Source: Malachius bipustulatus
Taxonomy: Eukaryota > Arthropoda > Insecta > Coleoptera > Melyridae
Assembly (NCBI GenBank): GCA_910589415.1
Contig: OU342634.1
Span: 4,650,001-4,714,000 of the forward strand
Length of the DNA: 64,000 nucleotides
Direction of reading: 5' to 3'
Shown here: piece after piece, positions 1 to 60,319 of the stretch
Layout of the letters: each line of letters begins with the position of its first letter
How positions within the stretch are numbered: position 1 is the stretch's first letter
The notes under the pieces: generated by a model
Told to the model about the DNA's origin: nothing
The model's database searches: none
What the model saw: only the letters and a program-made list of their open reading frames with translations
Made by a program: the position numbers and the translations under genes

Positions 1-1
1 C

Positions 2-3789: not shown

Positions 3790-3835
3790 TCTGTCATCAT
3801 GACAGGTCTCCGAGGTCACAACCTTTTGTTGCCTC

Positions 3836-3850
3836 GAAGGAAGGGGAGGG
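3836..3850 (+). promoter_or_regulatory. Polypurine tract of element A
   Basis: A purine run (GAAGGAAGGGGAGGG) lies 47 bp after the pol stop and directly before TGTGACGG, which has the TG start expected of an LTR. This is the plus-strand primer site for reverse transcription and marks the internal/LTR boundary. Confidence 0.75.
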
Positions 3851-5244: not shown

Positions 5245-5319
5245 CCGTTTTCGCCTAATCCACGCTCAGGCTCACGGTTCCGTGTGGCAAATTCTCTCGT
5301 GAAAGCAATAAACCAAGAC

Positions 5320-6122
5320 ATGAAAGCCTTAGAGCTTAAGGTCACGACAGGCGAAATAATTGGAAGAGGGGGATTTGGGATAGTAAGAAGAGCCAAAATG
5401 AAGACAACGGGAGAACTGGTGGCGGTAAAAACGATAAACGGAGACATCGAATGGAGAATTCAGGAGGAAGAAGCTCTGAAGGGCCTTAGTCACCACCACG
5501 TACTAAGCCCATTAGAAGTGGTAGTGACGCCAATAGCCCATCATTTCATCCTACCTCTGATGGAGCAAAGTCTATGGGACATAATTAAAAAAGGAGGCCA
5601 ATTTAAAAATGATTTTTTTATAAAATCGCTAATAAGTCTAATGGACGGTCTAGCGTATATCCATTCAATGGAAATAATCCATAGGGATATAAAACCCCAC
5701 AGTATCTTGATAAAAGGGGAAATAATTAAAATAGCAGATTTCGAGGCATTCCACACTACATGGCACCTGAAATGTGGAAGAAGACAGGATATGGGCATCC
5801 ATTGGACGTGTGGGCGGCAGGAATTACTGCTCTACAAATGGGAGGAGCAAATCTCCCATTTGATGGAAACACCAAAGCAATCGGGACAAAGGTGCTTGAA
5901 GTTCAAGCAAAATACGACGGACCAGAGCTAGAAGCAATAGAAGAGAACATAAGAATAATCGTGGCGGCAATGCTAAACGTCTCCCCTGCCAAACGACCCA
6001 CCGCCTTACAGGCAAGGGATTTACTGATTAAAATAAATAAAGGACAATCAAGTAAAGAAAATGTGGAGAAAAACAAAGATATTGGTCTAAAAAAAAGAAT
6101 ACTGACGAACAGCATGGCGGCG
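5320..6122 (+). pseudogene. Protein Ser/Thr kinase of element B, internally deleted and interrupted
   Basis: Protein kinase fold with a glycine loop IGRGGFGIV (residues about 26-34 counted from the upstream in-frame GTG at 5284), VAVK lysine (about 49), HRDIKP (about 133-138), then DF of DFG (about 152), and, after a frame change near 5740-5760, YMAPE and DVWAAG. The text between DF and the P+1 region is missing: a deletion removed most of the activation segment and shifted the frame. The Asn expected in HRDxKPxxN is Ser. ATG 5320 is the first Met; the frame is open from 5245. The C-terminus is cut by a MITE at 6125. The gene is AT-rich like the zinc-knuckle ORF downstream at 7288. The matching gene in element D2 is at 42386-43458. 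It is probably not catalytic now. Confidence 0.82.
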
Positions 6123-6124
6123 TA

Positions 6125-7012
6125 TACAGGGTTATTCACGGTATACGCCACGGAAGATTATGGCCGTGTCTCTGGATTTTAGGATCTTTTTATTTTTGGA
6201 GTGGATAGAGACCCGACAGAGGTACGTTTTAAAATTATATTCATAATGTACAGGCTGTCCCAAAAGCATGAAACATATCAAAGTTATGTTTTTTTAAATG
6301 GAATGCTCCTATGTTATTGCATTTTTAGATTGCCTGGGAAGAAAAAAGAAGATTGGCTTTTACAGTTGGTGTTTAAATTCAGAAGTTTTTGAGTTATAAA
6401 CAAGAAGTGAAAATCGTCATTTTTCAAGTTCAAGGCCCTGTACAACGAAAACGGCTCAAGATAGAGAAAAACGGCTTACATGTCCCTATTTTAACTTTTC
6501 ATGTACTATCCTATGGTATAGAAACATTATTGTACTTTCTTTGATTTTTTTATTTGTCGACGCGTGGAGAAATCTCAGAATTTTTCAAATTTTTTATCAC
6601 CCTGTACAAACATTTCATCTACATCATAGGATAGTTCATGAAAAGTTAAAATAGGGACATGTAAGCCGTTTTTCTCTATCTTCAGCCGTTTTCGTTGTAC
6701 AGGGCATTGAACTTGAAAAATGACGATTTTCACTTGTTTATAACTCACAAGCTTCTGAATTTAAACACCAACTGTAAAAGCCAATCTTCTTTTTTCTTCC
6801 TAGGCAATCTCAAAATGCAATAACATAGGAGCATTCCATTTAAAAAAACATAACTTTGATATGTTTCATGTTTTTGGGACACCCTGTACATTATGAATAT
6901 AATTTTAAAACGTACCTCTGCCGGGTCTCTATCCACTCCAAAAATAAAAAGATCCTAAAATCCAGAGAAACGGCCATAAACTTCCGTGGCGTATACCGTG
7001 AATAACCCTGTA
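6125..7012. mobile_element. Palindromic MITE X1 (TACAGGG termini, TA target)
   Basis: The two halves are near-perfect reverse complements: the left half from 6125 and the right half ending at 7012 both begin TACAGGGTTATTCACGG and both encode the same chance 63-residue ORF. Flanking TA on each side fits a TA target duplication. The core (CAAGGCCCTGTAC...CGGCTCAAGATAGAG) recurs in copies X2 and X3 at 30176-33294 and 33590-34904, and in weaker form in Z at 50933. It sits in the 3' end of the element B kinase gene. No transposase is encoded, so it is non-autonomous. Confidence 0.85.
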
Positions 7013-7283
7013 TACGCGCCAACAAAGCATGTTGGTCACCAAATTTTAAAAAAAGGATGTTACCATTCGTGGGAGAAAAAAGATACGAAAAAAAAATACG
7101 AATAAGATTCGAATGCGAGAATGGGGAAAAAATTCGCATTCATATGCCACCAATATACGAATAATTTTTCTCATTGTCGTGCAAGAAGTAGGCACTATTA
7201 AAAGATTTTTTTTTAACATATGGGTGACTCCAGCAAGCAAGCAAGAAATGATTGGAGAAACTCAGCTAATTGTATATAATTTC

Positions 7284-7287
7284 AGTC
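7284..7287 (+). promoter_or_regulatory. Candidate 3' splice site before the element B zinc-knuckle ORF
   Basis: A pyrimidine-poor but AT-rich run ends in TATAATTTCAG (AG at 7284-7285) two bases before the ATG at 7288. Equivalent ORFs in D1 and D2 also start directly after a CAG, which supports expression from a spliced RNA. Confidence 0.5.
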
Positions 7288-7656
7288 ATGGAGTCTCCAG
7301 AAGACGTACTCATTCTACATTGCGACTGGGAAATTTCTGATGACCTGTCTATTGTAGAAAAACAATGGATTAAATCAAAAGAATCCAGGGAGGAATTTTC
7401 TTCGAAAAAAGAATCACCTTCAGTTCCAGAATACATCAAAATAGAGAAAAATCAGTGCTGGACATGTGGTAAAATAGGACATCATAGAACACAATGCAGT
7501 CAGCCAAGGAAAATTTTCTGTTCAAGATGTGGGAAAATTGGTGTATTAAGTTGCAAATGTTTATGCAAAACAGAATACATAAAGAAGATAAAAATGAAGA
7601 AAACGAAGATGAACATTTTAGAAAAAAAGTTGAAGTTGAAGTTAAAGTTCAAGTGA
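7288..7656 (+). CDS. Small zinc-knuckle protein (ORF3) of element B
   Basis: A 122-residue protein not recognised as a named family. It has one full zinc knuckle, CWTCGKIGHHRTQC (CX2CX4HX4C), followed by a second Cys cluster, FCSRCGKIGVLSCKC, then a Lys-rich tail. The same pair of clusters, including the FCSRC signature, ends the Gag of element C and the ORF3 proteins of D2 and C, so it looks like a free-standing copy of a Gag nucleocapsid region and probably binds nucleic acid. It lies downstream of the kinase (5320-6122) and 180 bp before the polypurine tract, in the position of a third retroviral ORF. ATG 7288 is chosen because it follows a splice-acceptor-like sequence. The frame is intact although the neighbouring kinase is broken. 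Confidence 0.7.
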   Translation: MESPEDVLILHCDWEISDDLSIVEKQWIKSKESREEFSSKKESPSVPEYIKIEKNQCWTCGKIGHHRTQCSQPRKIFCSRCGKIGVLSCKCLCKTEYIKKIKMKKTKMNILEKKLKLKLKFK

Positions 7657-18506: not shown

Positions 18507-18679
18507 ATTGACGGCTGGGCGGGGCACCAGATTTTGCTGACGGTCTCCTTCGAGTGGCCGAGTACTCCGATAGTGGCCCACTTGACCTCAACGCCAACAT
18601 ACCACTGAGATTTTGACTAACGCGAGAGGCCGGACTCCCAAACCAGCTGGAAATTGGCTGCGTCGTCCGTGAGGCCTGC

Positions 18680-18826
18680 TTAAGGCCTCCGGTACTGCTG
18701 GGTGGTGGGTCTACTCGGGTCTATCATCGGCAATCCAGGTTCCGGTGACGGTGTATCCGCCCAGTTGTAACTGACGGAAGGGGGCTTGCTGAACCCATAG
18801 TCGAGCTCGAGCTCATCGGCGGACAT
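18680..18826 (-). pseudogene. ORF3 N-terminal fragment of element D1
   Basis: A 48-residue frame starting directly after CTGTTGCAG, a good 3' splice site (AG at 18827-18828). The start resembles the ORF3 of D2 and C: an acidic stretch, ELDYGFSKPPSVSY, then DTPSPEPG. It stops before any zinc knuckle, so the protein is truncated. No kinase gene is present between this and the integrase end at about 19299; that 470-bp gap holds nothing I recognise. Confidence 0.65.
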
Positions 18827-19298
18827 CTGCAACAGATTGAAGACAGGTTAATGACGGCTTTTCGTTGCCCCCTCTTCTCTAAGCACCCCGGCCCGATGTC
18901 AGGAAGGCGGTTCGTGGGAATCATGGATGTGGGTTCAAGGCGGGGAGGCGGATGTGCATCACACGCCCGGATTCGGTCTCTGTCTTGACGCACACCCGAC
19001 GGTCGGCTGTCCTTCCGGTCGGTTGCAATTGCTGCAAACAAGCGACCGCGGCTGTTGTTATAGGGACCGTCCTTCAGCACTCATCCATGCTGCGGCTGAT
19101 GACCACCCCTCGTCAGGCGGTTCGGTTGTAGATGACGGTCGTCGACAGCGAGGCGGTTGAGGCGGCGGCGGTTGTCTACATAGGGCTCACAGAAGCCGAG
19201 CGCTGTAGGAGGCAGATGAATGGGAAGCGGTGCCCAGTGGTTCCTCGGCGTCCGACGTTCACACGTTCGCCACGACGTCTGACCTGGAATGTCGGGAT

Positions 19299-20160
19299 TA
19301 ATTGGGGTTATCTGGTGGTTGGTCCGTAAATGGTTTCAGTTAATTGATGTGCACCCAACGGAACCGACGACCATATTCGTCCTTCAAATCGTAAACTACC
19401 GGTAAAACGACCTTAATAACGGTGTACGGCCCGGAAAATTTAGGCGCTAACTTCGCGGCGAACCCTTTTCCCCCAGCGGAAAGGTGGTGTTCTGCCTTCA
19501 TAACTTTATCCCCATTGCGACACTTCCAATCTTGAGGGCGGAGGTTGTGGTCTTTTTCTGGGAATTACTGGCTTGATTAAGGCGCAGCCGAACCAACTGG
19601 AAAATGCCGCGCAGTTCTTGCAGCCATCGCGTACGGGAGCCGCGGTCGCTTGGACTCGTGCTTGGAAGTATCTATACGTCATCGATAGTTTCGGAATACG
19701 GACGTCCCAGGTACGATGGTCGGCCCCGCAGAACAGGGCTATCATCGTCTTCAGGGTACGGTTCTGCCTCTCAACGGGATTGCACTGAAGCGAGTATACT
19801 GGGGTCAGACGATGTTTGATATCCCAGCTATCTAGGAAGTCTTCGAAGGCTCTGCTGACGAACTGACGGCCGTTGTCCGAGATAATGGTCTTTGGGCTTC
19901 CGAATTTCGTGATCACTGATTCCAAGAGCATATGAACGGATCGGACGTTGCAGCACGGATGGGGCGGCATTCCATCCATTTCGAGAATCATCTTGAACGA
20001 CCACGGCGTAGCTGTTTCCTTTTGCGGTGCGGGGCAATGGGTCAATCAGATCGATTGAGATGGTCTCCCACGGCTCACAGACGACGAATGGTTACATAGG
20101 GCCGGCGTTTTCTGTTGGGACGGTTTAAAGCGTTGTCAGTGTTGGCCTTCGAGGCCTCGC
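19299..20160 (-). pseudogene. Integrase of element D1 (frameshifted, with stop)
   Basis: DDE integrase catalytic part with ISDNGRQF and CNPVERQNRTLK (19700-19900), then a frame change, then the C-terminal GPY-type module KLAPKFSGPYTVIKV (about 19390-19450). A TAA interrupts the last block just before LKPFTD. It is closely related to the integrase of D2 at 43546-44235 and lies on the same strand as the RNase H fragment at 20075-20937. Confidence 0.82.
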
Positions 20161-20937
20161 GATATATTGCTGGCCAATAGTATCTAGTGTCGAGGCGTGC
20201 GCACGTCTTCGCCACGCCCAAGTGCCCGACGGTGGGCGCCTCGTGATTCTCCTCCAAGATGCGCTGGCGCAAACTGGCCGGCACACAGAGCTTCCACTGC
20301 TCATCCATCTCAGCCTCGAACGGTCGGCTCAAATCGGGGATGCGCCATTGTGGGCGATTGCCTCGGATACGAAAATCGGGGAACTTGCCCGGATTTTTCT
20401 CAACCTCCTCCAGTTTCTTCCGGTACCATGCGTCCAACTTTGAGCGGTCGGCGGTTCAGACGCGCAAATCTCTTCCTCAGTAGGCGGCGGAGAGGTTGCC
20501 AAATGGGACAAAAAAATCGGCCACCACATTCGACGACTCTTACGGTACACGACATCGAAATCGAAGGCCTGCAACCCCAAGGTCCACCTGGCGACCCGTC
20601 CGGCCAAGGTCTTAATCGAGTGAAGACAGCTCAGAGCTTGGTGGTCGGTTATATGATGGTGAATTTGTATCCCTCCAGGTAGGGACACATCTTCTTCACA
20701 CCCCACACGATCGCAAGACACTCCTTTTCGGAGACGGTGTAGTTACGTTTGGCTTTATTCAATTTCGGCTGGCGTATGTTATCACTTTCTCGCCGTCGTC
20801 GGTTTCCTGCGTGAGAGCGGCCCCAATTAATGGCCTACTGAAGTCAGGGCAAGTCAAGACGGAAGCCTCGGTCAGGCACCTCTTTAACGACGAGAACGCG
20901 GCGGTCTGGTCAGCTCTCCAGTTCCACCGGTGCGACT
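20075..20937 (-). pseudogene. RNase H and RNase H-integrase linker of element D1
   Basis: Pieces in several frames: FSSLKRCLTEASVLTCPDF (RT/RNase H connection), [17 protein letters not shown] (RNase H), then a linker with LDAWYRKK and LCVPASLRQRILEENHEAPTVGHLG leading into the integrase finger. The same sequence occurs in D3 (38640-39540), and the linker in element C. It ends abruptly at about 20937 against an opposite-strand gypsy fragment. Confidence 0.8.
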
Positions 20938-20939
20938 TT

Positions 20940-22713: not shown

Positions 22714-22724
22714 TTACTCCCTCC

Positions 22725-26283: not shown

Positions 26284-26286
26284 GTT

Positions 26287-37900: not shown

Positions 37901-38129
37901 CTGAGTCATGTATGGATACGGAGTCATGTATGGACCACACCGACCTTGTGGCAATGAGTCAATGCCGCCATCAACTGGACCCCGGCTTGACCGAGTTCGT
38001 CGTCTTTCGGCGCCCCCCTGGCGGTGATCATGCCATCGAGGTCCGTATCCGCCAACTCGAACGCCAGAAATGTCACGCGCTCGTAAATCAAGCAGCTCGA
38101 GAGCCGGACTAGGCTCGAGAAAGGAAGAA

Positions 38130-38537
38130 TAAAAACTGAGAGAAATCCATTGCAATATCCTCTCAGGATTGAGACAATTTAGGGAGCTCCTCGGAAATAT
38201 TAACCGAGAAAGGTCGAGAAAACTCCTAACCCTCAACAAAGTAAGTCTCAGAATGCTAACAGGATTCCTAACAGGTCATTTTGCAAGCTCAATGAATACC
38301 TGAGGAAACTTGGCATAGGAAAAGATGGCGTTTGCAGATTCTGCAAGGAAAACGAGGAAAACGAGACGCCTCATCACCTATTGATGAACTGCGAAGCACT
38401 AGAACGCGAAAGAAGCGATGTTCTGGGCCAACACCAGCTCAACGGGGCGGGGGGGGGGGGGGGCTCTGCCCGGCCGTGATCCCCTTCAAATCCTGAAATT
38501 CCTTAGGGAAGCGGAATTGGAGAGGCTGCTGCAATGA
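38130..38537 (+). pseudogene. LINE ORF2 C-terminal fragment (RNase H end and CCHC)
   Basis: RNase H-side motif SLRMLTGFLTGHF, a frame change, then LNEYLRKLGIGKDG and CRFCKENEENETPHHLLMNC (a CX2C...HX4C finger), ending LQILKFLREAELERLL and TGA at 38535. This is the usual C-terminus of insect LINEs that carry RNase H (I/LOA-like). A run of 15 G at 38449-38463 interrupts it. Confidence 0.75.
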
Positions 38538-38639
38538 AGGGAATATACACCAAAGAAGCAGAGAAGAGGGGGCACAATAGATCTGTAATACGTCGCAGCG
38601 CATCTGACACCCTCATTATCAATATCAATGGGGGATGCG

Positions 38640-39540
38640 CCAATGTAGGCGATCGCCTGGGATTCGAAAATCGGGGAACGCGCCCCGGATTTTTCTCAAC
38701 CTCCTTCAGTTTTTTCCGCTACCATGCGTCCAACTTTGAGCGGTCGGCGGTTTAGACGCGCAAATCGCTTCCTCAGTAGGCGGCGGAGAGGTCGCCAAAT
38801 GGCAAAAAAATCGGCCACCACATTCGACGACCCCTTACGGTACACGACATCGAAATCGAAGACCTGTAACCCCAAGGTTCACCTGGCGACCCGTCCGGCC
38901 AAGGTCTTAATCGAGTGACGACAGCGCAGGCTTGGTGGTCGGTTATGATGGTGAATTTGTATCCCTCCAGGTAGGAACGCATCTTCTTCACACCCCACAC
39001 GATCGCAAGACACTCTTTTTCGGAGACGGTGTAGTTTCGTTTGGCTTTATTCAATTTCGGCTGGCGTATGTTATCACTTTCTCGCCGTCGTCGGTTTCCT
39101 GCGTGAGAGCGGCCCCAATTAATGGCCTACTGAAGTCAGGGCAAGTCAAGACGGAAGCCTCGATCAGGCACCTCTTTAACGACGAGAACGCGGCGGTCTG
39201 GTCAGTCTCCAGTTCCACCGGTGCGACTTTTTTAACAGTCTGGTTAACGGAGTCGCGATCTGGGCGAAGTTGGGGATGAAACGGCGGTACCAGCCTGCCA
39301 TGCCAAAAAAGCTTCGGAGCTGGCGACTCGTCTGGGGAGCTGGCACATCTCGAATTCATTGCACCTTGTCTGGGTCGGTTGCAATGCCGCTTGACGTGAC
39401 CACATGTCCCAAGTACTTCAGTGCGCGGAGGCAAAAGTTACATTTCTATGGATTTATCTGTAGGTTCGCACGTTTTAGGCAACGGAAGACCTCACGGAGG
39501 GTGTCGAGGTGTTCGTCGAATGTCTTTCCCAGTACTATGA
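38640..39540 (-). pseudogene. Element D3: RT end and RNase H fragment
   Basis: Minus-strand Ty3/gypsy Pol in several frames: FDEHLDTLREVF, FCLRALKYLGHVV (RT C-terminal part), [55 protein letters not shown] (RNase H). It closely matches D1 at 20400-20937. It is cut at 39540 by the LTR of fragment F. Confidence 0.82.
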
Positions 39541-40014
39541 TGTAAAGATTTTATGGTTTTCTTTTTCTTCTGGTTTGTTAAAATATTTCTTGTAAACGCA
39601 ATAATGAAATAATCAAGATTGCAATTATTGCTATTATGAACCATGTAATTAAATTAGAAATGAGATTATGTTTGTTAAAGTTTAAATTTAAATATTTTAG
39701 TTTTTCAAGATTTATATGGGATATATTTGCGGCGATCACCTTCAAGCCAACATCAGCGCTATGCCTAAATGAACGATGTGGATGTACCATGGCAGAAAAA
39801 AAAGAAGAATCTTCAGAAAATAATAATAGTAATGATATTATTAAGATTCAGAGTTAATCCAAAAAAGTAAAATCTAGGTCCTGAGAACGAATAATACGAA
39901 TAAATAATCATAAAGTTGTTGAAGTAATAAAATATTGTTCAAATTCTGCAAGTCATTTCTGTATCTTTCCTGAAATAAAATAAAATAGGCCTCAACCTTG
40001 AAACCAAGTGGCCA
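39541..40014 (+). repeat. 5' LTR of CsRn1-type fragment F
   Basis: 474 bp from TGTAAAG to GGCCA, followed three bases later by a tRNA-Trp primer site and the gag start. It is inserted in D3. Confidence 0.7.
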
Positions 40015-41852: not shown

Positions 41853-42287
41853 TCAACGCGCCTCAGGGAGTCTCGGCGAGCGGTCGGTCCGGGCCATCTC
41901 TGGTGTCGGGGACTCCTCGCGACGCCTGGGCTTCCCGGTAGTCGCGGCGCAGGGGCAGTCCCGCGACAACACATCCGCGCGCCCGCATCGCGAGCAAAAT
42001 AGCCTTGCCACCCCCGTAAAGGCGCTCCGATAGTGCCCCACTACCCCGCAGCGCGAGCAGAGGATGGTAGCGCGACCGGGCCCGCGAGTTGTAGTGCGGT
42101 CCCTGCGGCGTGGAGGCGCGAGCTCTGGAGATGACGAACACGCCCTCGCGGTCGTCGTCAGCGGTGCCTTTGGTAGTGAGTAGCCCACCGGCGGTCCGGG
42201 TTCGGGGGACGGAGTGTCAGTAAAAGTATAACTGATGGAGGGCGGGGTGCTAAACTCGTATGTTAGTTCGAATTCGGAATCTGACAT
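41853..42287 (-). CDS. Small zinc-knuckle protein (ORF3) of element D2
   Basis: 144 residues. An N-terminal acidic stretch is followed by FSTPPSISYTFTDTPSPEPGPP, which recurs almost unchanged in D1 and C; a Ser/Pro/Arg-rich linker; a zinc knuckle CSRCGVVGHYRSAF in which the last Cys is Phe; and LFCSRCGRADVLSRDCPC. The start is placed at 42287 because TTTTGTTTTCAG, a strong 3' splice site, immediately precedes it. It lies 98 bp downstream of the kinase ORF, in the same order as in element B. No function is known; nucleic-acid binding is likely from the Cys clusters. Confidence 0.72.
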   Translation of the reverse strand: MSDSEFELTYEFSTPPSISYTFTDTPSPEPGPPVGYSLPKAPLTTTARACSSSPELAPPRRRDRTTTRGPGRATILCSRCGVVGHYRSAFTGVARLFCSRCGRADVLSRDCPCAATTGKPRRREESPTPEMARTDRSPRLPEAR

Positions 42288-42299
42288 CTGAAAACAAAA
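42288..42299 (-). promoter_or_regulatory. 3' splice site before ORF3 of element D2
   Basis: The minus strand reads TTTTGTTTTCAG directly before the ATG, a textbook polypyrimidine tract and AG. A GTAAGT donor on the same strand lies at about 43462-43467, just upstream of the kinase ATG, so an intron spanning the kinase is possible. Confidence 0.6.
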
Positions 42300-42385
42300 C
42301 ATTCGGTCAGTTTCGACTTATTAGCAAATGGCGGTTACGGTCCCGCCTTACGGACCTCACTCGTCGGCGGGGATTCGGAGGCGAA

Positions 42386-43458
42386 TCATGCGTCCTGTTT
42401 CGGTCCGACGCGTGCCTTGACTACCACGTCCGTTCGGGCACCAGCGGGGCGGAGTCCCCGGATGCGGTCGCGGACCCGCCGAGGGCGTGGTGTGATTTCC
42501 CACATTTCCTCTAGGCTCCGGCTCATCACCGGCAAGTCGCACGGTAGACTAGGAACCATCGGTGTCTCAGCTGGTGGCGCCTGGGAGCTGTTGGGAGTCG
42601 CGGCTGGAGTTGGAGGGCGGACTGCTCGTTGATCGCCAGGCATCGGGACGTCGACGACGGTACCTGGACGGCGAGACGGATCGTCCGTCAGCATTTCACG
42701 GATCCATCGCAAAACTCTTCCTCTGGGGTTCTGTTCGGATGTCCATCGGTAGCCCACCCCCACACGGTCCAATACGGAGGCCGTGTGAAACCGGCGACAA
42801 TCTTCCCGACGGTGGCGGCGTACAGCGCGGTAGCCCCGCAGGACCAGACGTCCACCCGGTGGTCGTACGGTCGCCTTCCCACCAGTTCAGGCGCTGCGAA
42901 GCCCGGGGTCCTGGCGGGGCCGTGCCATTTGGACGGGGTTGGCCTGGCGATAATTGCTTGTCCGAAGTCCGCCAATTTGACCCCCATATTGGGCCCCGTA
43001 CCGCGCACCAAGACGTTTCCCGGTTTTACGTCTCGGTGGATGAAGCTCCGGCCGTGGCAATGCTGTACGGCCCGCATCAGGCTCACCGCGACCCGCCCTA
43101 GCTCTTCCGCGTCCATGGCACCTCGTGCTGCGACGCGGTGGTGTAGGTCCGCCTCCGCCAGCTCCATCACCATAAAGACGGCTTGGTGATGGACCTGGGC
43201 GTCAATCAGCTGGGTGATATTCGGGTGCTCCAGGGATATCCCGGCCAGATGCTCGGTCAACACCGCGTGCTCGGTTTCAGGGAGGCGCCGGACCATTTTG
43301 ACGGCGACTGTCGTACCGTGTGTGCGTCGGACGCATTCGCGGACGCAGCTGAAAGTTCCCTCGCTCAGCAAGGGACCCGCGGAATAGTGTCTGGCGAACG
43401 GTGGAGCCCGCCATTCGGGGTCGGTGTACAGGGAAGCCCTCGGGAGACCGCTCTCCAT
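42386..43458 (-). CDS. Protein Ser/Thr kinase carried by element D2 (one frameshift)
   Basis: Phosphotransferase with the catalytic signature complete in the first frame (43458-42688): glycine-loop region SEGTFSCV (32-39), VAVK Lys54, HRDVKPGNVL with Asp143 and Asn148, DFG 164-166, APE at 189-191 and DVWSCG (204-209). The frame ends early; the kinase subdomain XI text (IREMLTDDPSRRP) continues one frame over at about 42700-42660 and then a Pro/Ser-rich tail runs to 42386. So one small indel splits the gene near 42700-42740. It lies between the integrase stop (43546) and the ORF3 acceptor, on the same strand and with the same high GC, so it is part of the element rather than a chance neighbour. 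The closest cellular kinase family is not clear to me. Confidence 0.85.
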
Positions 43459-43545
43459 GGTTACTTACGGGACGTGAAACATACTATATGGGTCGTTCAT
43501 GTGGGCCAAACCGCCGCCGAGATGGAAGGGGGACAAATACGGGTT

Positions 43546-44235
43546 TTACTCGGGATGCCTCGGTGCGAAATCGGTATACGGTTTGAGATCCTTGACGTGT
43601 ATCCTAAGCAGGCGGCCAGCCTCGTCCTCCAGATCGTAAACCACGGGAGATCTTACCTTTATAACGGTGTACGGGCCGGAAAATTTGGGCGCGAGCTTCG
43701 CGGCAAAACCTTTTTCCCCCGACGAGAGATGATGCTCCACTCGCATAACCTTATTCCCCACATGACATCTCCAATCGCGGCGCCTAAGGTCGTAATGTCT
43801 CTTCTGGTCGTTGCTTGCCTGGTTCTGATATAGCCGGACTAACTGATAGAGATCATGCAACTCCTGCAGTCGGCGCAGACGTGGGGCGAGGTCGCAATTG
43901 TCCTGGTCGTCGGCAACGTTGTCAGCGGACGGGAAAACCATGCTTGGCACTCGTAGCTCTCTACCCATGTTCAAAAATGCGGGAGTGTACCCGGTGGACT
44001 CGTTCTTCGACGTATTGTACGCCATGGACAGCTCGGGAATGCGCACGTCCCATTTGCGGTGGTCGGCCCCGCAGAATTGAGCGATCATGGTTTTTAACGT
44101 CCGGTTCTGGCGTTCGACGGGGTTACACTGCGGCGAATATACACTGGGGTTAGCCGGTGCTTGATATCTCAGTCTTCCAGGAACTCTTCGAAGGTCTTCC
44201 CGATGAACTGGCGCCCGTTGTCTGAAATCACGGTT
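43546..44235 (-). pseudogene. Integrase C-terminal half of element D2
   Basis: CNPVERQNRTLKTMI with the catalytic Glu, then ELSMAYNTSKNESTGYTPAF, a long helix-rich region, VGNKVMRVEHHL and the GPY-type module KLAPKFSGPYTVIKV, ending in a normal stop at 43546. Upstream of about 44140 the frame shifts (the ISDNGRQF region is out of frame), and at about 44235 homology ends against the tandem repeat array. It is the same lineage as D1. Confidence 0.85.
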
Positions 44236-44260
44236 CTCATTCTCATTCTCAGAGGCGGAC

Positions 44261-44950
44261 AACATTAATGGATGGCATGTTGTCTGACAACATGTCATTC
44301 ATCTTTTGTCTAGCAACGCCTAGTAGGGGCTTTACCTACTTCATGCACACCGGGAGGCACTGCACTCATTTTTGGCATGCATTATGGCTGTCTGGGGTGT
44401 ATCCTATGGCGCAAGCCGAACCCACCGTGCCTTTTATTTTATTTTTATTTCATTGCATTCTGCTCACGGTTTAGATCACGGGATCCGTGATCTAAACTGT
44501 GCTGTGTGTTGGTAGATACATTGTACTGAAGTGTCCCAAACAGGACGAAACACGTGTCTACAATTTCCGCCTCTGCTCACAGCACAACATTAATGGATGG
44601 CATGTTGTCTGACAACATGTCATTCATCTTTTGTCTAGCAACGCCTAGTAGGGGCTTTACCTACTTCATGCACACCGGGAGGCACTGCACTCATTTTTGG
44701 CATGCATTATGGCTGTCTGGGGTGTATCCTATGGCGCAAGCCGAACCCACCGTGCCTTTTATTTTATTTTTATTTCATTGCATTCTGCTCACGGGATCCG
44801 TGATCTAAACTGTGCTGTGAGTTGGTAGATACATTGTACTGAAGAGTCCCAAACAGGACGAAACACGTGTCTACAATTTCCGCCTCTGCTCACAGCACAA
44901 CATTAATGGATGGCATGTTGTCTGACAACATGTCATTCATCTTTTGTCTT
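44261..44950. repeat. Tandem repeat, about 2.2 copies of a 313-325 bp unit
   Basis: Units start at 44261, 44586 and 44899 (the last is about 52 bp). Each unit begins with the palindrome CATGTTGTCTGACAACATG. Unit 1 has 12 extra bases that complete a 12-bp hairpin, GTTTAGATCACG/CGTGATCTAAAC. The 68- and 84-residue ORFs inside are copies of each other and are probably not genes. Confidence 0.9.
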
Positions 44951-48441: not shown

Positions 48442-48445
48442 AGAC

Positions 48446-52692: not shown

Positions 52693-52730
52693 GTAAGTAT
52701 TCCAGTAGTAGTCAATTTCACAGTTAGGCT

Positions 52731-54561
52731 TGTAACTACGACTCCGCCTGAGAGTCGTCCGTGGCGTTTCGCTGGTCCGGAATCGCCTGGAGATCGGACG
52801 GATTCCTCGGGCGCCAGATTTTTACTGAGGGCTTACTCCCTTGGGAAGATGTTCTCGCCAAATCTTCCCACTTACCTGAGTCGTAATTACAATGGTACTG
52901 CTATAGTACCCTTGTCCCAGGGGTAGCTCTGTGGAGAAACGGAAAGTGCCAGGGGTCGGTTGAGGTTACCACCCTAAAAGAATTGTGTTCGGCAAAGCGG
53001 GCTTTAATCGCTTTCCGAAAGCATTGGCACCTCCGAGGAGCCAAGCTGTAGCGAGTGATTGTCGGTTTAAAGGATACTTAATTAATTAATGCAGAACGGA
53101 TGAACATTAACACCACAGAATGCAACTTAACAATTTTTATTATTAATTTATCGGAGTAGGTACACAATGAGCAATAATAATGAATCGGTATGAATGAATA
53201 AATAATAACAAATCGGTCACGGGGCACAGCGGTACGTGAGGGGCGGTTGCGACTAATAAGTAGGTAGGTATACACGTCGGAATGACGAACGGGCGGTTAA
53301 AAACGGCCTGGATCGGTTTTGACAAAAAAGGAATAACTAGGCGGGCTGTTCTCGGCGGTTATGTGAGTAGTGCGGCCACGGTGATCTCAACTACGCATTC
53401 GGAGGGGAATCGGCACAATTTTGGCGGGATACGCTGTTCCGCGAGCACCAGACGCCACCCCCAGCCCACTGATCCACCCTTGCTATGCCAGGCGATGGAC
53501 CGCGTACTAGGAGCGAAGCCTTTGTTGCCCACAACGGAGAGATGAAGGGGTATTGAAGGAGCCCGTTGTTCCGCGGGTACCAGACACCACTCCCGGCGCA
53601 CTGATCCACCCTTGCTATGCCAGGCGATGGACCGTGAACTAAGAGCGAGGCCTTTGTTACCCACAACGGAGAAGGTGGGGGTTATCGGAGAAACCCGTTG
53701 TTCCGCTGGCACCAGACACCACTCCCGGCGCACTGATCCACCCTTGCTACGCCAGGCGATGGACCGTGAACTAGGAGCTAAGTCTTTGTTTACCAACAAC
53801 GGAAGGAGGAGACGGTTCTGATGAAGGCTGGAGCGATGGGAGTGAGAGGAGAAAAAAATATCGACCGCAGCAGAAATATAAATTGCAACAGCACCTACCT
53901 TTGACTATTCTTCGGCAACGGGTCTAGATAGAGATCTTCTATTAATTCAGACGCACTACTAACAACGACCCCAGGTACTTCCCGGTAAAAAGGATAAAAA
54001 TTAAAATAACTATAATTATTGCACGCGGACTTCCCGGTAAACTGAGGCGGCTGACTACCTAACGCACTTCTTCACGATCGGAGATCAGAATACCTAATTT
54101 TTTTTCAAATCACGGCCCCGGTTTATATAGCGACCACTATCGGTTCCTGGTGAGATAGAAATTTTCGAGAACATTTTCTCCGTAAAAAAAGGTTAATTTA
54201 AACTGCTATCTGCGGCCCGGTGCATTTCGGCGTTTTTATAATGCGATAGTGGTCGATAACTTGCTTGAATTTGAAGCCAACTGCCTCGATTTAGTTACCT
54301 TAAAAATTAGCCTGTTCATAAAAAATTAATGAAATTAAATGAAATCATGAAAATTATTAGTACTTTGCTGATTCAAGGTACCTACCTACCAAACCCTATT
54401 TCTGTACTATTCGTAAAAACTTAACTGAATTAATAATAACTTAAACGGGGTGGTCCTACCTATCTACCTATGTCGTTGGAATGATCTTTATTTATTGAAA
54501 AGAATAGAAAAATAGAAATAAGATAAAATAGATGGAGTCGGGGTAACACGACTTCATTACA
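52731..54561 (-). repeat. 3' LTR of element C
   Basis: 1831 bp. On the minus strand it starts TGTAATGAAG; a TATA box (CTATATAAAC) lies at about 54121-54131. It contains three tandem 132-bp units (53434-53820). Near its plus-strand start it has hairpins GGGAAGAT/ATCTTCCC and GGTACT/AGTACC, shared with the solo LTR at 30681. Confidence 0.93.
53434..53820. repeat. Three tandem 132-bp units in the element C LTR
   Basis: The unit (CAGAC.CCAC at 53449, 53581, 53713) is exactly 132 bp, so a minus-strand frame stays open through all three units. The same array is present in the other LTR (about 59193-59580). Confidence 0.88.
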
Positions 54562-54600
54562 CCCCCCCTACTTCGGTAGACAAAAGCCCCGGCTTTTGTC
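54562..54600 (-). promoter_or_regulatory. Polypurine tract and preceding hairpin of element C
   Basis: The minus strand reads GACAAAAGCC-GG-GGCTTTTGTC (54600-54579, 10-bp stem), then CGAAGTAGGGGGGG directly before TGTAATGAAG. Same order as in element B. Confidence 0.75.
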
Positions 54601-55010
54601 CCCCCTGGCTCCCAGAAAAAGAACGCCCTCGTTCGCCACTCCTTCGCAACAAACAATAAAACAGAAACGCGTGTACGCTGTGCCTCGCTTACAACAGAAA
54701 CAAACAAACTTTCGGTATCTTAAACTCCTGGTATACAAAAATTAATTTCCCTATCTATATATAAAAATAATTCCCTATCTATTTACATTATATTTACAGC
54801 CCCTAAATTAACTCCCTAAATAAAAATCGCACAAGTCAATCCCCACCTATTTACAAGTCCATCCCCAAAATAACAAATCCCCAAAAATGAAACCAACACT
54901 TTATACAACACTCTCTAGTATGGTCCTAACGGGAGGATTCACTGACCGCGGCACAATAAACTCACCCATCCTGATCGAGCGTCACGGTCCACCGTCGCCC
55001 CTCCGCCCGG

Positions 55011-56576
55011 TCACTCTCTCCGTGACCTGGACGTTCGCCGAGGCTGCCGGATGTAGAACCGGCGGCGGCGCAGTTCTCCCCTGCGAGCCTGGGCGTCCGG
55101 CGAGCGGGTGGGTGCGAGTGGCGCAACCAGCAGCTCGCACTGGATGGCCTTCTCTGCCGTCGTCCTTGGCTGGGTGGCGAGACCTTCTCGACGCGGCGGC
55201 TCCTCGCGCCGGTCCACTTCTCGAGGACGCCGGCGCTTGGGTCCCAGGGGTCCGCCCCGGCATGGGCAGTCACGGGACAAAATCTCCGGCCGGTTGCAGC
55301 GTGAGCAGAACAGCCGCGGCGCCCCCCTGCACTGGCTCCGGTAATGGCCCGTCTCGCCACACCGCCAGCACAAAACGGGAATTCCGGCAGGCTCGGGAGT
55401 GGTCGGGCGGCGTCCCAACCGACGGAAGATCGGTCTCTTCGGTGACGGCGATCTTCGCTGTGCTTCAGCGGCGGACGCCTCTGCGGATGACGCCTCCGTC
55501 GGCGTTGCGTGGCGTATCGGTGGCCCGGGCTCCGGTGACGGGGTTTCGGTGAAGGTATAACTTATTGACGGCGGTGCACTAGCCCCGTAGTCCAACTCAG
55601 ACTCACCTTTGGACATCACTTTGGGGCTACGGTTTGCGGTAATTGCGCCGCCGTTCCCCTCTAAGACACGGTGACGCAGACTTGCCGGGACGCACAGCTT
55701 ACACCGCTCTTCGGTCCCCTTCTCGAACGGACGGTTACTATCCGGGACCCGCCGCTGCGGGCGGTCGTCACGGATACGGACATCGGGGCATGCGGCCGGG
55801 TTCTTCTCGACGGTGTCACATTTCTCTCGGTACCAGGCGTCAAGTTTCTCGCGATCCGCGGTTTCGGTCGCGCAAACTTCGCCTTCGGCGGGTGGCGGGG
55901 CTGTCGGGGCGTCGCATGTCACTAACGGTTGACTCTGGCGCCGTCCTGGGCGCGCGCGACGTTTCCTGGGGCATCGGCGGCGCTGACGAGGGACTTTCAT
56001 GGCGCCAGTCTTTTCCATCAGCCCGGTTTCGGCCCGGCGTGGTCGCTCGCCGTCGCTCTCCTTCCGCTGGGTGCGAGCCTGACCGCTTCGGTCGTCGGTG
56101 TGTCCCGGTTCTGCCACCGGGGCTCGGAGAGGGTACCTTCGGCCCTTGATGCACACCTCGCGCCTGTGCATGTCCAACGAGAAATGGTCGTCCCCAAGGA
56201 AATCCATTCCCAGCACCATATCGACGGGTAAATTCAGCAAGAACAAGCAGGCCGCCTTCAATTTGTCGGCGCCAAGGCAGACGTCGAGCAGGAAGGTGGT
56301 CCGGATCGGTACGGTCGTGCCGTCGGCGATCCGCGCGGACGTCCCCTTATATCGTCGAATACGGACGCCCTGTTTCTCGCAATGGCTGGCCACTTCGGCG
56401 CCCACAAACGAACGGGTTGCCCCCGTGTCTACGAGGGCCTCGAACGTCCTCCCCTCGATAGTGACGGTGAGGAACGGTCGTGTGTCCGGGTCCAAGTCGG
56501 CTAGGCGGCAGTTACGGTTGCTCGGGGCGGGTATCCGGTTTTCCGGCGTCTTTACCCGCCCCGCGTCTCGTTTCCC
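55011..56576 (-). CDS. Protease-ORF3 fusion ORF of element C
   Basis: One open frame reached by -1 slip at 56570-56576. Aspartic protease with ALVDTGATRSFVG (about 15-27 from the Met at 56495) and VDMVLGMDF; a Lys/Arg-rich stretch; the RNase H-integrase linker LDAWYREK...LCVPASLRHRVLEGN; then, after the deletion point near 55620, the ORF3 sequence (PPSISYTFTETPSPEPGPP), a zinc knuckle CWRCGETGHYRSQC, FCSRCNRPEILSRDC and an Arg-rich tail. RT, RNase H, integrase and kinase have been removed in at least two deletions, yet the frame is preserved for 494 residues. The splice acceptor normally before ORF3 is absent here. Confidence 0.85.
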   Translation of the reverse strand, partial: GKRDAGRVKTPENRIPAPSNRNCRLADLDPDTRPFLTVTIEGRTFEALVDTGATRSFVGAEVASHCEKQGVRIRRYKGTSARIADGTTVPIRTTFLLDVCLGADKLKAACLFLLNLPVDMVLGMDFLGDDHFSLDMHRREVCIKGRRYPLRAPVAEPGHTDDRSGQARTQRKESDGERPRRAETGLMEKTGAMKVPRQRRRCPRKRRARPGRRQSQPLVTCDAPTAPPPAEGEVCATETADREKLDAWYREKCDTVEKNPAACPDVRIRDDRPQRRVPDSNRPFEKGTEERCKLCVPASLRHRVLEGNGGAITANRSPKVMSKGESELDYGASAPPSISYTFTETPSPEPGPPIRHATPTEASSAEASAAEAQRRSPSPKRPIFRRLGRRPTTPEPAGIPVLCWRCGETGHYRSQCRGAPRLFCSRCNRPEILSRDCPCRGGPLGPKRRRPREVDRREEPPRREGLATQPRTTAEKAIQCELLVAPLAPTRSPDAQARRGELRRRRFYIRQPRRTSRSRRE

Positions 56577-58201
56577 GGACGCTGACAGTCGCAGTCTCGC
56601 GACATTACACCCGGACGCTCACAACGCGAGCAAAAGAGTTTCGGCTGCCCGGAACACTGGCTGCGGAGATGTCCCGTCTCCCCACAACGCCAACAGACGG
56701 CTCGGGCGTTGTCTCGTGCAGGTGGAGAGAACCTGGCAGTTTTTGGCACCGCCTGTTCGGCCATGGTATCGCCAGCTTCGATCGCCCTCCGGGGTGGCGA
56801 CGCACTTCGGCTCGGTTGTCGATGTGACTGCCATTCTGTCCTTCTCGGCGGCAGTGGACTGGAGGGTGCGGAGGGCATGGTGGACGGACGTAGCAGTCTT
56901 GCTTCGGGTCCCGGAAATCTTCGGACGGTTCGGAGTTCGGCCAGCACATCCTGGGCCGCCTTGGCGTCGGCCATCAACGAGCTTACGTCATCGTAGCTGC
57001 GGCTCCAGAGTATTTGTTTCATTTCGGGTCGAAGGTTTCTCTGCATCCAGTCCAACTGTCGGTGTGGCGGTATCGAGCCGTGACGCCTGAACAGCGTCTG
57101 CATCGCGGTGATATACCGGAGCACGTCCTCGCCTGGCGCCTGCACTCGCCGACTGATCTCTGCCTCCAAGTCGAAGAAATAATCAGCGTGGAGGAAGTAT
57201 TTTCGGAACGCCGTCTGGAAGTCGGGCCACGTCGTCATGTAGGCAGAATTATTTCGGTACCATGCTAGGCACTCTCCTTCCAGTAGGAGTGGCATGGCGC
57301 GGAGCATCCTTTCCTGGCTCACTCCGTATATCTCCCGGAGCTCCTCCAGACGCTCCAGGAAATCGACTGCACTGGTTCGCCCGTCGTACCGCAGATTCCA
57401 AGCGGATACATTGGGCGGTCCCATCGGTTCGGTCGGTCTAGACGGGACCATTGGGGCAAAGGCGTACGGTATATAACTCGGGGCCGTTGGCGTTGGCAGA
57501 TGCCACGGTGGCGGTGCGGTCTGAGGCGTCGGTGTCGGGACGGTTGTAGCGGTCGGGGGGCAAGACGTCCATGTAGTCGCAGTGGTGCATGCGGGTAGTG
57601 CGGAAGACACCACTGTTGTCGTCATAACGGTCGATGAGGCGAGCGTCGTGACGGCGGTCTTGCTGTCCGACGCCAAACCAGGGAGGGACTTGATCCTGGC
57701 CGACAATATTCTTCGCTTCTCCTCCACTGTTGATGGGCATGACAGTCCTAGTCTGGCCAGTTCGGCGTCCAACTCGTCCTTCTTTAATTTGTAGATCCAG
57801 GACGTGCGGGGTTCATCTTGCAGAGGTAGGCCGCCAAAGGAGGCGGCGGAGTGGTCCGTGGACGGTCCTGTAGACCCGGACGCCGCTGCTCCCTGCTCGA
57901 GATCGTCAGCGCCCATTCTGACCCAGTCAGCACCGAGCATGCGCGGCGGTCGGGGGGGGGGGAGGTTACTGACGGCACTGAAAAGGTCGGTGGTGAGGTC
58001 CCCAGGGGAGAGCAAAAAATTCCAGTCGGATCGGACCAACGGTTCAACTTCTGCGGGGTTTTGGCCGATTTTGGGACTCTTGCAATGGAGTCTTGGAAGT
58101 TCTGCGGGGCTCAAGCGGTCGGCTCGGTCCCTCTGGATGCAATAGCGAAAGAAAATCTGACCTAGCAAACCAAAGGCCAAAAACTCCAAATGACCGCCCA
58201 A
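56552..58201 (-). CDS. gag: Gag of element C
   Basis: 549 residues, intact. A segment LKKDELDAELARLGL...TVEEKRRIL (about 140-165) looks like a SAP-type helix-hinge-helix, which often binds DNA. Then a Thr/Pro-rich linker, the capsid region (LEGECLAWYRNN, FRKYFLHADYF, LDWMQRNLRPEMK), and C-terminal zinc knuckles CWRCGETGHLRSQC and FCSRCERPGVMSRDC. The start Met 58201 is the first in frame, about 290 bp from the 5' LTR. The FCSRC tail is nearly the same as in the ORF3 proteins. Confidence 0.9.
   Translation of the reverse strand: MGGHLEFLAFGLLGQIFFRYCIQRDRADRLSPAELPRLHCKSPKIGQNPAEVEPLVRSDWNFLLSPGDLTTDLFSAVSNLPPPRPPRMLGADWVRMGADDLEQGAAASGSTGPSTDHSAASFGGLPLQDEPRTSWIYKLKKDELDAELARLGLSCPSTVEEKRRILSARIKSLPGLASDSKTAVTTLASSTVMTTTVVSSALPACTTATTWTSCPPTATTVPTPTPQTAPPPWHLPTPTAPSYIPYAFAPMVPSRPTEPMGPPNVSAWNLRYDGRTSAVDFLERLEELREIYGVSQERMLRAMPLLLEGECLAWYRNNSAYMTTWPDFQTAFRKYFLHADYFFDLEAEISRRVQAPGEDVLRYITAMQTLFRRHGSIPPHRQLDWMQRNLRPEMKQILWSRSYDDVSSLMADAKAAQDVLAELRTVRRFPGPEARLLRPSTMPSAPSSPLPPRRTEWQSHRQPSRSASPPRRAIEAGDTMAEQAVPKTARFSPPARDNARAVCWRCGETGHLRSQCSGQPKLFCSRCERPGVMSRDCDCQRPGNETRGG
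56570..56576 (-). promoter_or_regulatory. -1 frameshift slippery site GGGAAAC (element C)
   Basis: Minus-strand G_GGA_AAC in gag phase, five codons before the gag stop; the -1 frame is open from here into the protease. Confidence 0.75.
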
Positions 58202-58467
58202 AATTTTCGATGGTTCGGATTCCTCGGATATGCTTTCCCTTCGGTTTCGGCCTTTTTAAAAATTTCGTCCTTTTTGCCGTCAGACGCCGGGAAGTGCCTC
58301 AAAATCGCACTTTTAGGTTACGGTCGGGTCGGTTTCGGATTTCGGTCCTGGTACGGATTTTTGTCGACACTTGGCAACGCTGCGGGGTACTACGGTGGTC
58401 GTGAGTGCTTCTTTCGGGAATGTCTATTATTTTCTATCTACAGCGGGAAGAATGGAACTTCAATAGG

Positions 58468-58485
58468 GTCCCTGCTCGGGCGCCA
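58468..58485 (-). promoter_or_regulatory. tRNA-Lys-type primer-binding site of element C
   Basis: The minus strand reads TGGCGCCCGAGCAGGGAC, four bases inside the 5' LTR. It matches the known tRNA-Lys primer site pattern at 17 of 18 positions. Confidence 0.8.
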
Positions 58486-58489
58486 CTTT

Positions 58490-60319
58490 TGTAACTACGA
58501 CTCCGCCTGAGAGTCGTCCGTGGCGTTTCGCTGGTCCGGAATCGCCTGGAGATCGGACGGATTCCTCGGGCGCCAGATTTTTACTGAGGGTTTACTCCCT
58601 TGGGAAGATGTTCTCGCCAAATCTTCCCACTTACCTGAGTCGTAATTACAATGGTACTGCTACAGTACCCTTGTCCCAGGGGTAGCTCTGTGGAGAAACG
58701 GAAAGTCCCAGGGGTCGGTTGAGGTTACCACCCTAAAAGAATTGTGTTCGGCAAAGCGGGCTTTAATCGCTTTCCGAAAGCATTGGCACCTCCGAGGAGC
58801 CAAGCTGTAGCGAGTGATTGTCGGTTTAAAGGATACTTAATTAATTAATGCAGAACGGATGAACATTAACACCACAGAATTCAACTTAACAATTTTTATT
58901 ATTAATTTATCGGAGTAGGTACACAATGAGCAATAATAATGAATCGGTATGAATGAATAAATAATAACAAATCGGTCACGGGGCACAGCGGTACGTGAGG
59001 GGCGGTTGCGACTAATAAGTAGGTAGATATACACGTCGGAATGACGAACGGGCGGTTAAAAACGGCCTGGATCGGTTTTGACAAAAAAGGAATAACTAGG
59101 CGGGCTGTTCTCGGCGGTTATGTGAGTAGTGCGGCCACGGTGATCTCAACTACGCATTCGGAGGGGAATCGGCACAATTTTGGCGGGATACGCTGTTCCG
59201 CGAGCACCAGACGCCACCCCCAGCCCACTGATCCACCCTTGCTATGCCAGGCGATGGACCGCGTACTAGGAGCGAAGCCTTTGTTGCCCACAACGGAGAG
59301 ATGAAGGGGTATTGAAGGAGCCCGTTGTTCCGCGGGTACCAGACACCACTCCCGGCGCACTGATCCACCCTTGCTATGCCAGGCGATGGACCGTGAACTA
59401 AGAGCGAGGCCTTTGTTACCCACAACGGAGAAGGTGGGGGTTATCGGAGGAACCCGTTGTTCCGCTGGCACCAGACACCACTCCCGGCGCACTGATCCAC
59501 CCTTGCTATGCCAGGCGATGGACCGTGAACTAGGAGCGAAGTCTTTGTTACCAACAACGGAAGGAGGAGACGGTTCTGATGAAGGCTGGAGCGATGGGAG
59601 TGAGAGGAGAAAAAAATATCGACCGCAGCAGAAATATAAATTGCAACAGCACCTACCTTTGACTATTCTTCGGCAACGGGTCTAGATAGAGATCTTCTAT
59701 TAATTCAGACGCACTACTAACAACGACCCCAGGTACTTCCCGGTAAAAAGGATAAAAATTAAAATAACTATAATTATTGCACGCGGACTTCCCGGTAAAC
59801 TGAGGCGGCTGACTACCTAACGCACTTCTTCACGATCGGAGATCAGAATACCTAATTTTTTTTCAAATCACGGCCCCGGTTTATATAGCGACCACTATCG
59901 GTTCCTGGTGAGATAGACATTTTCGAGAACATTTTCTCCGTAAAAAAAGGTTAATTTAAACTGCTATCTGCGGCCCGGTGCATTTCGGCGTTTTTATAAT
60001 GCGATAGTGGTCGATAACTTGCTTGAATTTGAAACCAACTGCCTCGATTTAGTTACCTTAAAAATTAGCCTGTTCATAAAAAATTAATGAAATTAAATGA
60101 AATCATGAAAATTATTAGTACTTTGCTGATTCAAGGTACCTACCTACCAAACCCTATTTCTGTACTATTCGTAAAAACTTAACTGAATTAATAATAACTT
60201 AAACGGGGTGGTCCTACCTATCTACTTATGTCGTTGGAATGACCTTTATTTATTGAAAAGAATAGAAAAATAGAAATAAGATAAAATAGATGGAGTCGGG
60301 GTAACACGACTTCATTACA
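58490..60319 (-). repeat. 5' LTR of element C
   Basis: 1830 bp, about 99.3% identical to the other LTR by eye. It contains the same three 132-bp units and TATA box (about 59880). Confidence 0.93.

Follow-up and report, generated by a model that had tools for sequence, protein, structure and literature searches.

Does a Ty3/gypsy retrotransposon carry a protein kinase gene of its own in the position of env, how did it come by that gene, and what would the kinase act on? These questions are raised by element D2 in a 64,000-nucleotide stretch of the beetle Malachius bipustulatus (contig OU342634.1, positions 4,650,001 to 4,714,000; this whole stretch is called the window below). A preliminary description of the window had read D2 as an integrase, a kinase and a zinc-knuckle open reading frame (ORF) on one strand, and had found the kinase and zinc-knuckle pair again in an element B. 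Our analysis revealed that the kinase gene belongs to the element, that it is constrained, and that it is missing from copies that still multiplied. As a whole, the results are best explained if the kinase is an accessory gene that was captured once, is kept by selection, is made from spliced RNA and acts in trans, a reading in which we place moderate confidence.

The kinase gene belongs to a Ty3/gypsy element and is constrained

The coordinates of D2 agree with the order first proposed. On the minus strand, the C-terminal part of an integrase from a 5' truncated element (43546..44298; 34% to the polB integrase and 91% to that of relative L010) is followed by the kinase (42360..43458), which Pfam assigned to Pkinase at E=1.7e-41, and then by the zinc-knuckle ORF, here called ORF4 (41853..42302). 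Within the integrase ORF, SH3_Tf2-1 scored 26.4 bits, under its curated cut-off of 30. The kinase had been described as having a full catalytic signature, and the VAVK, HRDVKPGN, DFG and APE motifs are indeed all present, with CaMKII kinases as the closest solved structures by sequence. The gene itself is decayed, however: its pieces, when aligned to the L010 kinase, lie at 43458-42715, 42745-42407 and 42407-42360 in three reading frames, so this copy is broken. The open part (42688-43458, 256 amino acids) is the first portion of a protein that reaches about 360-420 amino acids in most relatives and 524 in the longest. ORF4 of D2 has lost its zinc-finger cysteines and gave no family in a Pfam search; it was identified by comparison with element E elsewhere in the window, whose ORF4 it resembles at 50% and whose gag zinc fingers it resembles at 56%. 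The proposed splice acceptor was confirmed as the acceptor-like sequence TTTTCAG|ATG directly 5' of ORF4, and it recurs in relatives. D2 is a fossil copy, with pol cut off upstream of the integrase, the kinase frameshifted and the zinc-finger cysteines gone. At window 44259-44949, the site expected for the upstream D2 pol, a 325-bp tandem unit is present twice and seems to be the source of the odd N-terminus of the D2 integrase ORF.

The window's own assembly (544,256,285 bases) was searched with the D2 kinase, giving 149 places at E<=1e-3 (148 of 242 candidates were scored). The weaker matches include host kinases; nine such places were fetched, and seven had a readable kinase frame. We fetched 10 kb around each of 20 among the best kinase places. 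An integrase piece lay 5' of the kinase in 18 of these 20 loci (not in L011 and L019; in L017 it was a 29-residue tail only), a gag-like piece lay 5' in 17 (not in L011, L012 and L019), and an ORF4-like piece lay 3' in 17 (not in L013, L018 and L019). In 10 of the 20, direct repeats resembling long terminal repeats (LTRs) bracket the set, nine pairs being 99.8-100% identical over 262-1523 bases and the L014 pair 99.1%; the repeats are partial because the fetched stretches start within the 5' LTR, and that of L018 is of another kind. A primer binding site (PBS), TGGCGCCCGAGCAGGGAC, follows the 5' LTR in 8 of the 8 copies printed, and a purine-rich run precedes the 3' LTR start TGTAAYGAAGTC in several copies. 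The resulting order of gag, protease (PR), reverse transcriptase (RT), RNase H, integrase, kinase, ORF4 and LTR is that of a Ty3/gypsy element, and Pfam found protease, RVT_1, RT_RNaseH, Integrase_H2C2 and rve in Ty3/gypsy order in the pol of L021. The family has the LTR features of Ty3/gypsy elements, namely LTRs of the form TG...CA, a PBS, a polypurine tract (PPT) and a short target duplication, the last of these from element E.

As a second test of association, we compared the positions of 70 kinase places (the best plus some weaker ones of the 149 listed) with those of 78 integrase places (of at least 152). A same-strand integrase was found no more than 3 kb upstream of 47 of the 70 kinase places, and no more than 400 bp upstream of 42, with a median distance of 142 bp. 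Among the 23 places without an entered integrase upstream are what appear to be host kinases, as well as isolated kinases, L019 for example. The kinase copies are mostly not scattered, then, but sit behind an integrase.

Selection was estimated as the ratio of nonsynonymous to synonymous substitution (dN/dS) by Nei and Gojobori counting in overlapping pairs of copies. All 15 pairs compared for the kinase fell at 0.19-0.45, and the seven whose dS was 0.1-0.5 fell at 0.19-0.30, which bears out the purifying selection on which the preliminary description had made its reading depend. Diverged pairs gave 0.10-0.13 for pol, and three near-identical ones gave 0.11, 0.18 and 0.29; for ORF4, which is under looser constraint, the ratio was 0.2-0.7, and 0 in two near-identical pairs that have one or two differences in all. 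In the five relatives scanned, the kinase matched PF00069 with 123.9-176.3 bits against a cut-off of 31.7.

A side observation concerns locus L038 (G000:C18:407500-409900), where a kinase of the family runs directly into sequence for a TPR protein (TPR_1, E=5e-11) that resembles a host gene and is possibly a host message captured by the element. The kinase place at C18:675430 is similar to L038.

Expression, loss and possible target of the kinase

ORF4, the constant neighbor of the kinase, carries the same double zinc finger as Gag. Comparing ORF4 with the gag of another element gave a mean finger identity of 64%; the value was 63% within the set of nine ORF4 sequences and 83% within that of six gags, and ORF4 and gag of the same element were 59-73% identical (five elements). 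ORF4 was therefore rejected as a recent private copy of the element's own gag fingers, the same-element values being hardly above the 64% found between elements. Most D2-type ORF4 proteins have an acidic, Ser/Thr-Pro-rich N-terminus. With five kinases and two ORF4 proteins as queries, Pfam gave only Pkinase and zf-CCHC, and neither an envelope nor any other family at E<=0.05.

Acceptor-like sites recur before both genes. In 17 of 21 copies the ORF4 ATG is immediately preceded by CAG, in many cases accompanied by a pyrimidine run and a branch-like CTRAC; three B-type copies have CAG two bases upstream of the ATG, and L015 does not fit the pattern. The ORF4 acceptor with the best score lies 16 bases upstream in L022 and L023, and L028 gave no ORF4 start. 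For the kinase start, the best acceptor score within 30 bases was at or above the 93rd percentile of 374 control ATGs, on which the ORF4 scores also rely, in 13 of 16 copies; L029, L035 and L037 fell under it, and the site of L041 is 28 bases upstream. The copies scored represent fewer lineages. Ten D2-type copies have a spacer of 77-101 bases between integrase and kinase, two B-type copies one of 30-32, and the frame from the integrase stop to the kinase ATG is 0, 1 or 2 depending on the copy. This variation speaks against a fusion to pol, and frameshifting or read-through was rejected as the general mode of expression. With these acceptor-like sites, the kinase and ORF4 may be made from spliced RNAs like retroviral env. 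A 5' splice-site-like GGG|GTRAGY in mid-gag occurs in 10 of 11 copies (L010, L013, L015, L016, L020-L023, L025 and L027, not L024), and we did not adopt it as the donor: in the gag frame it encodes Gly-Val-Ser, as in gag E, and the acceptor-to-ATG distances keep no single frame.

Loss of the kinase was observed in two families. L042 and L043 match L044 at 96-98% on the integrase side and lack its bases 790-2646, that is, the kinase save its first codons and all of ORF4. The junction of this deletion was found at 9 places in the genome (98-100%), while 12 others match only its first 90 bases (89-97%), each with a kinase match nearby. Similarly, L030, L031 and L032 match L029 at 95-98% and lack its bases 774-2381, which hold the kinase and most of ORF4; this junction is present at 13 places (93-100%), and six B-type places match only its first 69 bases. 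Two of the 9 and three of the 13 junction copies were read directly. An origin of the kinase-less copies as spliced complementary DNAs was rejected, since the breakpoints of L029 against L031 and L032 do not resemble GT-AG. Single losses also occur: L045 has lost 546 bases inside the kinase, and L013 keeps the kinase while ORF4 was not seen. With the two kinase-removing deletions this widespread (9 and 13 places), an element can apparently be copied without a kinase in cis. The complete copies that carry the kinase are likewise young, their LTR-like pairs being 99.8-100% identical.

We hypothesize that the kinase serves a lineage of Ty3/gypsy LTR retrotransposons as an accessory gene. Its capture most likely happened a single time, before the B and D2 types diverged, together with or beside ORF4, a second zinc-knuckle gene resembling the element's nucleocapsid. 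The kinase gene would then have been inherited with the integrase, held by purifying selection, and made from a spliced RNA, as env is, between the integrase and the 3' LTR. The protein would regulate element particles or RNA in trans, and the Gag nucleocapsid and the Ser/Thr-Pro-rich ORF4 protein would most likely be what it binds or phosphorylates. Copies missing both genes would spread all the same, either needing neither or relying on the products of complete copies. The joint loss of kinase and ORF4 in two families fits a joint role.

Several observations weigh against this hypothesis. No 5' donor scored above the cut-off in the leader before gag in 11 copies (the leader start was guessed for three). 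The zinc fingers of ORF4 are no closer to one another (63%) than to those of gag (64%), and B-type ORF4 proteins do not have the Ser/Thr-Pro-rich N-terminus that we take as the likely substrate. The dN/dS pairs overlap, cover few lineages and come from the counting method, and the grouping of the B and D2 kinases has a support of only 80/91. The DFG Asp is lost in one branch, in three copies along with the catalytic-loop Asn, and the HRD Asp is lost in one copy, which implies that the element can at times dispense with catalysis. For 31 of the 78 integrase places, no kinase place of the 70 lies in the 3 kb downstream; many of these 31 belong to kinase-less families. No kinase was found in L033 and L034, the two loci read of about 70 listed places of a sister family (48-50% integrase identity). 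This sister family and the kinase-free integrase places indicate that the lineage spreads well without a kinase. L033 and L034 themselves belong to a young sister Ty3 family with a different small ORF of about 140 amino acids after the integrase.

As to the target, the preliminary description had offered Gag/nucleocapsid or a host factor as a guess, and it is still a guess: we propose the Gag nucleocapsid and ORF4 tentatively, and a host protein is almost as likely as the element's own proteins. The kinase could act on a factor of small-RNA silencing, the cell cycle or innate defence, in the manner of the kinases of large DNA viruses, with ORF4 as a separate RNA-binding helper. This fuller alternative, which we find somewhat unlikely, is in keeping with a generic Ser/Thr kinase for which no element-specific substrate site is visible, and spreading kinase-less copies may, on this reading, profit from complete copies in the same cell. 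The two deletions that removed the kinase and ORF4 jointly hint instead at a joint role, but L013, L045 and element E each lost only one of the pair.

Descent of the kinase and the need for catalysis

To address whether the kinase descended with the element, trees were built from 22 of the 26 kinase rows (L014, L017, L019 and L035 were dropped for too little integrase). The kinase and integrase trees proved congruent, with 16 of 19 splits common to both. In the sample analysed, none of the three findings that the preliminary description had named as fatal to its reading emerged, namely scattered kinase copies, a kinase tree in conflict with that of the integrase, and a lack of purifying selection. 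Two splits found only in the kinase tree are weak (60/46 and 55/56); another, joining L020 and L024 at 98/82, may reflect recombination between near-identical copies. In a wider integrase tree, whose 80 rows comprised 27 of our own sequences and 53 of 120 database relatives, the B and D2 types stood together at 88/75, adjoining a clade of database sequences, and L033 and L034 fell elsewhere. The named pol relatives among the best 120 come from ants, bees and flies. A kinase-domain tree that included 7 host kinases and 20 database kinases left the B and D2 types on the same side of a split supported at 80/91. When a B-type kinase was used as the query, its 22 best non-B matches were all D2-type (from E=2.4e-21), several of them aligned to residue 381, into the C-terminal module. 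That module is common to the D2 kinases and was detected weakly in the B type by profile (E=0.039 and 0.18).

Element B and D2 had been offered as two independent copies that argued against a chance capture. Dozens of copies with the same order are now known, and the independence of B and D2 is what gave way: their kinases more likely stem from one capture than from two, a conclusion from trees and matches that is likely but not proven. Separate captures of different host kinases by the B and D2 types are rather unlikely in our judgment. They would account for the low identity of the two types (26-36%), for a one-clade support that at 80/91 is not decisive, and for the rank of the best host-like kinase (E=2.1e-18), above many of the other D2-type copies, with the B-type query. 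They would leave as coincidence that the best non-B matches are D2-type and extend into the C-terminal module, that both kinases occupy the same position beside the same ORF4, and that the integrases form one clade.

A close host parent gene was not found among the scored candidates. Against the D2 kinase, seven apparent host kinases from the window's assembly showed 26-33% identity; in the protein database, where the candidates sharing most words were scored, the best-scoring match reached 36% and none of the 120 listed exceeded 41%. A profile of ten kinases retrieved only generic kinases among the 120 database matches listed. Scans of viral contigs with the D2 kinase, polB, the PR/ORF4 protein of element E and the L021 pol gave nothing useful.

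Catalytic residues were read in 30 kinase rows representing 29 copies, partial ones included. The Lys, the HRD Asp and the DFG Asp are kept wherever they are covered, except in the L013-L018 branch and in L036. In L013-L018, GFS or GFG replaces DFG; L018 has also lost the HRD Asp, and L014, L016 and L018 have His for the catalytic-loop Asn. In L036, HRN replaces HRD. The L013-L018 branch is constrained all the same: its four pairs at a dS of 0.41-0.50 gave dN/dS of 0.25-0.30. In this branch, then, selection can maintain the domain for docking alone. That the domain is mainly a docking module throughout the family, resembling a pseudokinase and with catalysis secondary, would suit this branch as well as the open frame of 532 amino acids in L036. 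We doubt it more than separate captures, because the other fetched branches keep all three residues where covered and because loss of the DFG Asp need not end activity; CASK has no standard DFG and is still active. The L036 frame (G000:C6:1444300-1447300) has tandem Pro-rich repeats between the kinase domain and the C-terminal module.

That the kinase is a functionless passenger of a recent burst is very improbable. Kinase-less derivatives do spread well, but open frames persist in several diverged subfamilies with dN/dS well below 1, and the acceptor-like sites recur. An ordinary host kinase family with retrotransposons adjoining by chance, to which the abundance of kinases in hosts and the 23 of 70 kinase places without an entered upstream integrase might point, is scarcely credible and was rejected on the recurrent order and spacing of integrase, kinase and ORF4, their position inside LTR-like pairs and the congruent trees.

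Known systems and the other elements of the window

Among the nearest parallels are the insect endogenous retroviruses of the errantivirus type, such as gypsy, which have the same Ty3/gypsy backbone with an extra gene between pol and the 3' LTR. In contrast to these, the third and fourth genes here encode a kinase and a zinc-knuckle protein, and no Pfam envelope family was present in those scanned. According to one study, env-F was lost several times in persisting insect endogenous retrovirus lineages (PMC12992720). The mdg1 group (412, Mdg1 and Stalker) likewise has accessory ORFs in insect Ty3 elements, sORF1 and sORF2, one of which was tested as an infectivity factor (PMC11952523). These ORFs are small, lie upstream of gag and include one transmembrane, fusogen-like protein, whereas the kinase lies downstream of pol; no ATG-started ORF of at least 41 amino acids besides gag was present in 700 nucleotides of L020, L022 and L025.

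Other systems resemble the family in the capture or use of a kinase. Acutely transforming retroviruses (v-src, v-raf and others) also carry host-derived kinases, which are recent captures nearly identical to the host gene; here the database identities given above are far lower. Host-gene capture is likewise known from LTR elements such as maize Bs1 that have taken up gene pieces and exist in one or few copies, whereas here the gene is under selection across a diversified lineage. Large DNA viruses also encode their own Ser/Thr kinases, possible regulators of virion or host proteins (varicella-zoster virus ORF47, for example); the elements here have no DNA-virus genome. Endogenous retroviruses without env have reportedly been called genomic superspreaders, and we liken the kinase-less copies to them as a comparison, not as a test.

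To our knowledge, accessory genes of LTR retrotransposons are few, and those whose work is known concern entry (env and fusogens). No LTR retrotransposon with a kinase gene was among the papers listed in our literature searches, which most subscription papers lay outside. The family might be an undescribed, virus-like Ty3 lineage defined by two proteins in the env position, a kinase of its own and a nucleocapsid-like one, both expressed by splicing, in which complete copies and kinase-less "superspreaders" coexist with pseudokinase branches and signalling is shared in trans; as a full picture we find this plausible, while leaning slightly against it. The family has kept its kinase under selection and has twice produced kinase-less versions that spread. 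Kinase-bearing, kinase-less and pseudokinase branches within one genome offer a ready comparison for what a retroelement gains from its own signalling enzyme, for how such genes are captured and for the reasons that proliferating copies lose them. What annotated genomes present as "kinase gene family expansions" may be retrotransposons.

Besides D2, four relatives lie within the window: element B, D1, a fragment at 38112-37918 and element E. The B kinase (5293..7161, plus strand) is present from about codon 42 on and is 94-97% to the L029 kinase, and its ORF4 follows (7270..7656, plus strand; 94.8% to the L029 ORF4; zf-CCHC 19.7 bits, just under the cut-off of 20.8). The order kinase then zinc knuckle described for B is thus present, but the kinase is split into pieces at 5293-5742, 5739-6125 and 7012-7161, with a frameshift near 5740 and a 0.9-kb palindromic insertion at 6115-7021. 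The pol at 568-3789 was rejected as part of B's element; it lies in a younger Ty3/gypsy element without a kinase that is nested inside kinase B (1..5293, plus strand; gag end 2-640, 3' LTR 3851 to about 5289). The LTRs of this nested element are 99.93% identical over 1443 bp (C6:4647137-4648579 and C6:4653851-4655293, the latter being window 3851-5293), the 5' LTR lies outside the window, and a 4-bp duplication, AATT, marks the junctions. It inserted after about codon 40 of kinase B, so that the first 40 codons and the integrase of B are upstream of the window, beyond the nested element. The B integrase was found at C6:4646216-4646977 (L039:717-1478), just before the nested element, and is 98% to that of L029, in which integrase, a 385-amino-acid kinase and ORF4 stand consecutively. 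The proposed sharing of an LTR start by B and D1 also holds: the B-type copy L029 has a polypurine tract and the LTR start TATAACGAAGT, and this LTR start is also seen at D1, near window 18506.

D1 (18524..20939, minus strand) is a decayed relative with RNase H/integrase pieces at 20938-19307, a kinase C-terminal relic at 19112-18924 and an ORF4 relic at 18835-18524. A further relative (37918..39541, minus strand) has RT/RNase H pieces at 39541-38631 and the kinase fragment at 38112-37918 (63% to the L021 kinase). Element E (52730..60319, minus strand) is bounded by LTRs, has no kinase and has kept ORF4: its 5' LTR (60319-58489) is followed by the PBS TGGCGCCCGAGCAGGGAC, gag (58201-56552), a frame at 56495-55011 that joins PR, an integrase remnant and ORF4, and a PPT before the 3' LTR (54561-52730). 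The E LTRs are 1832 bp long and 99.3% identical, and the element is flanked by a 4-bp target duplication, AGCC.

The window also holds elements of other kinds. A BEL/Pao element at 8786-15982 has open ORFs of 941 and 832 amino acids and 602-bp terminal repeats that are 99.7% identical, and another Ty3-like element at 22415-26583 has 299-bp repeats (98.7% identical) and ORFs of 853 and 272 amino acids. Adjoining ORFs at 46946-49207 (minus strand) matched RT and, weakly and under the curated cut-offs, RNase H-like and phage-integrase-SAM-like domains, an arrangement that is DIRS-like. Finally, the palindromes at 6115-7021 (about 90%, inside kinase B) and 50921-51783 (about 98%) are foldback-like elements.

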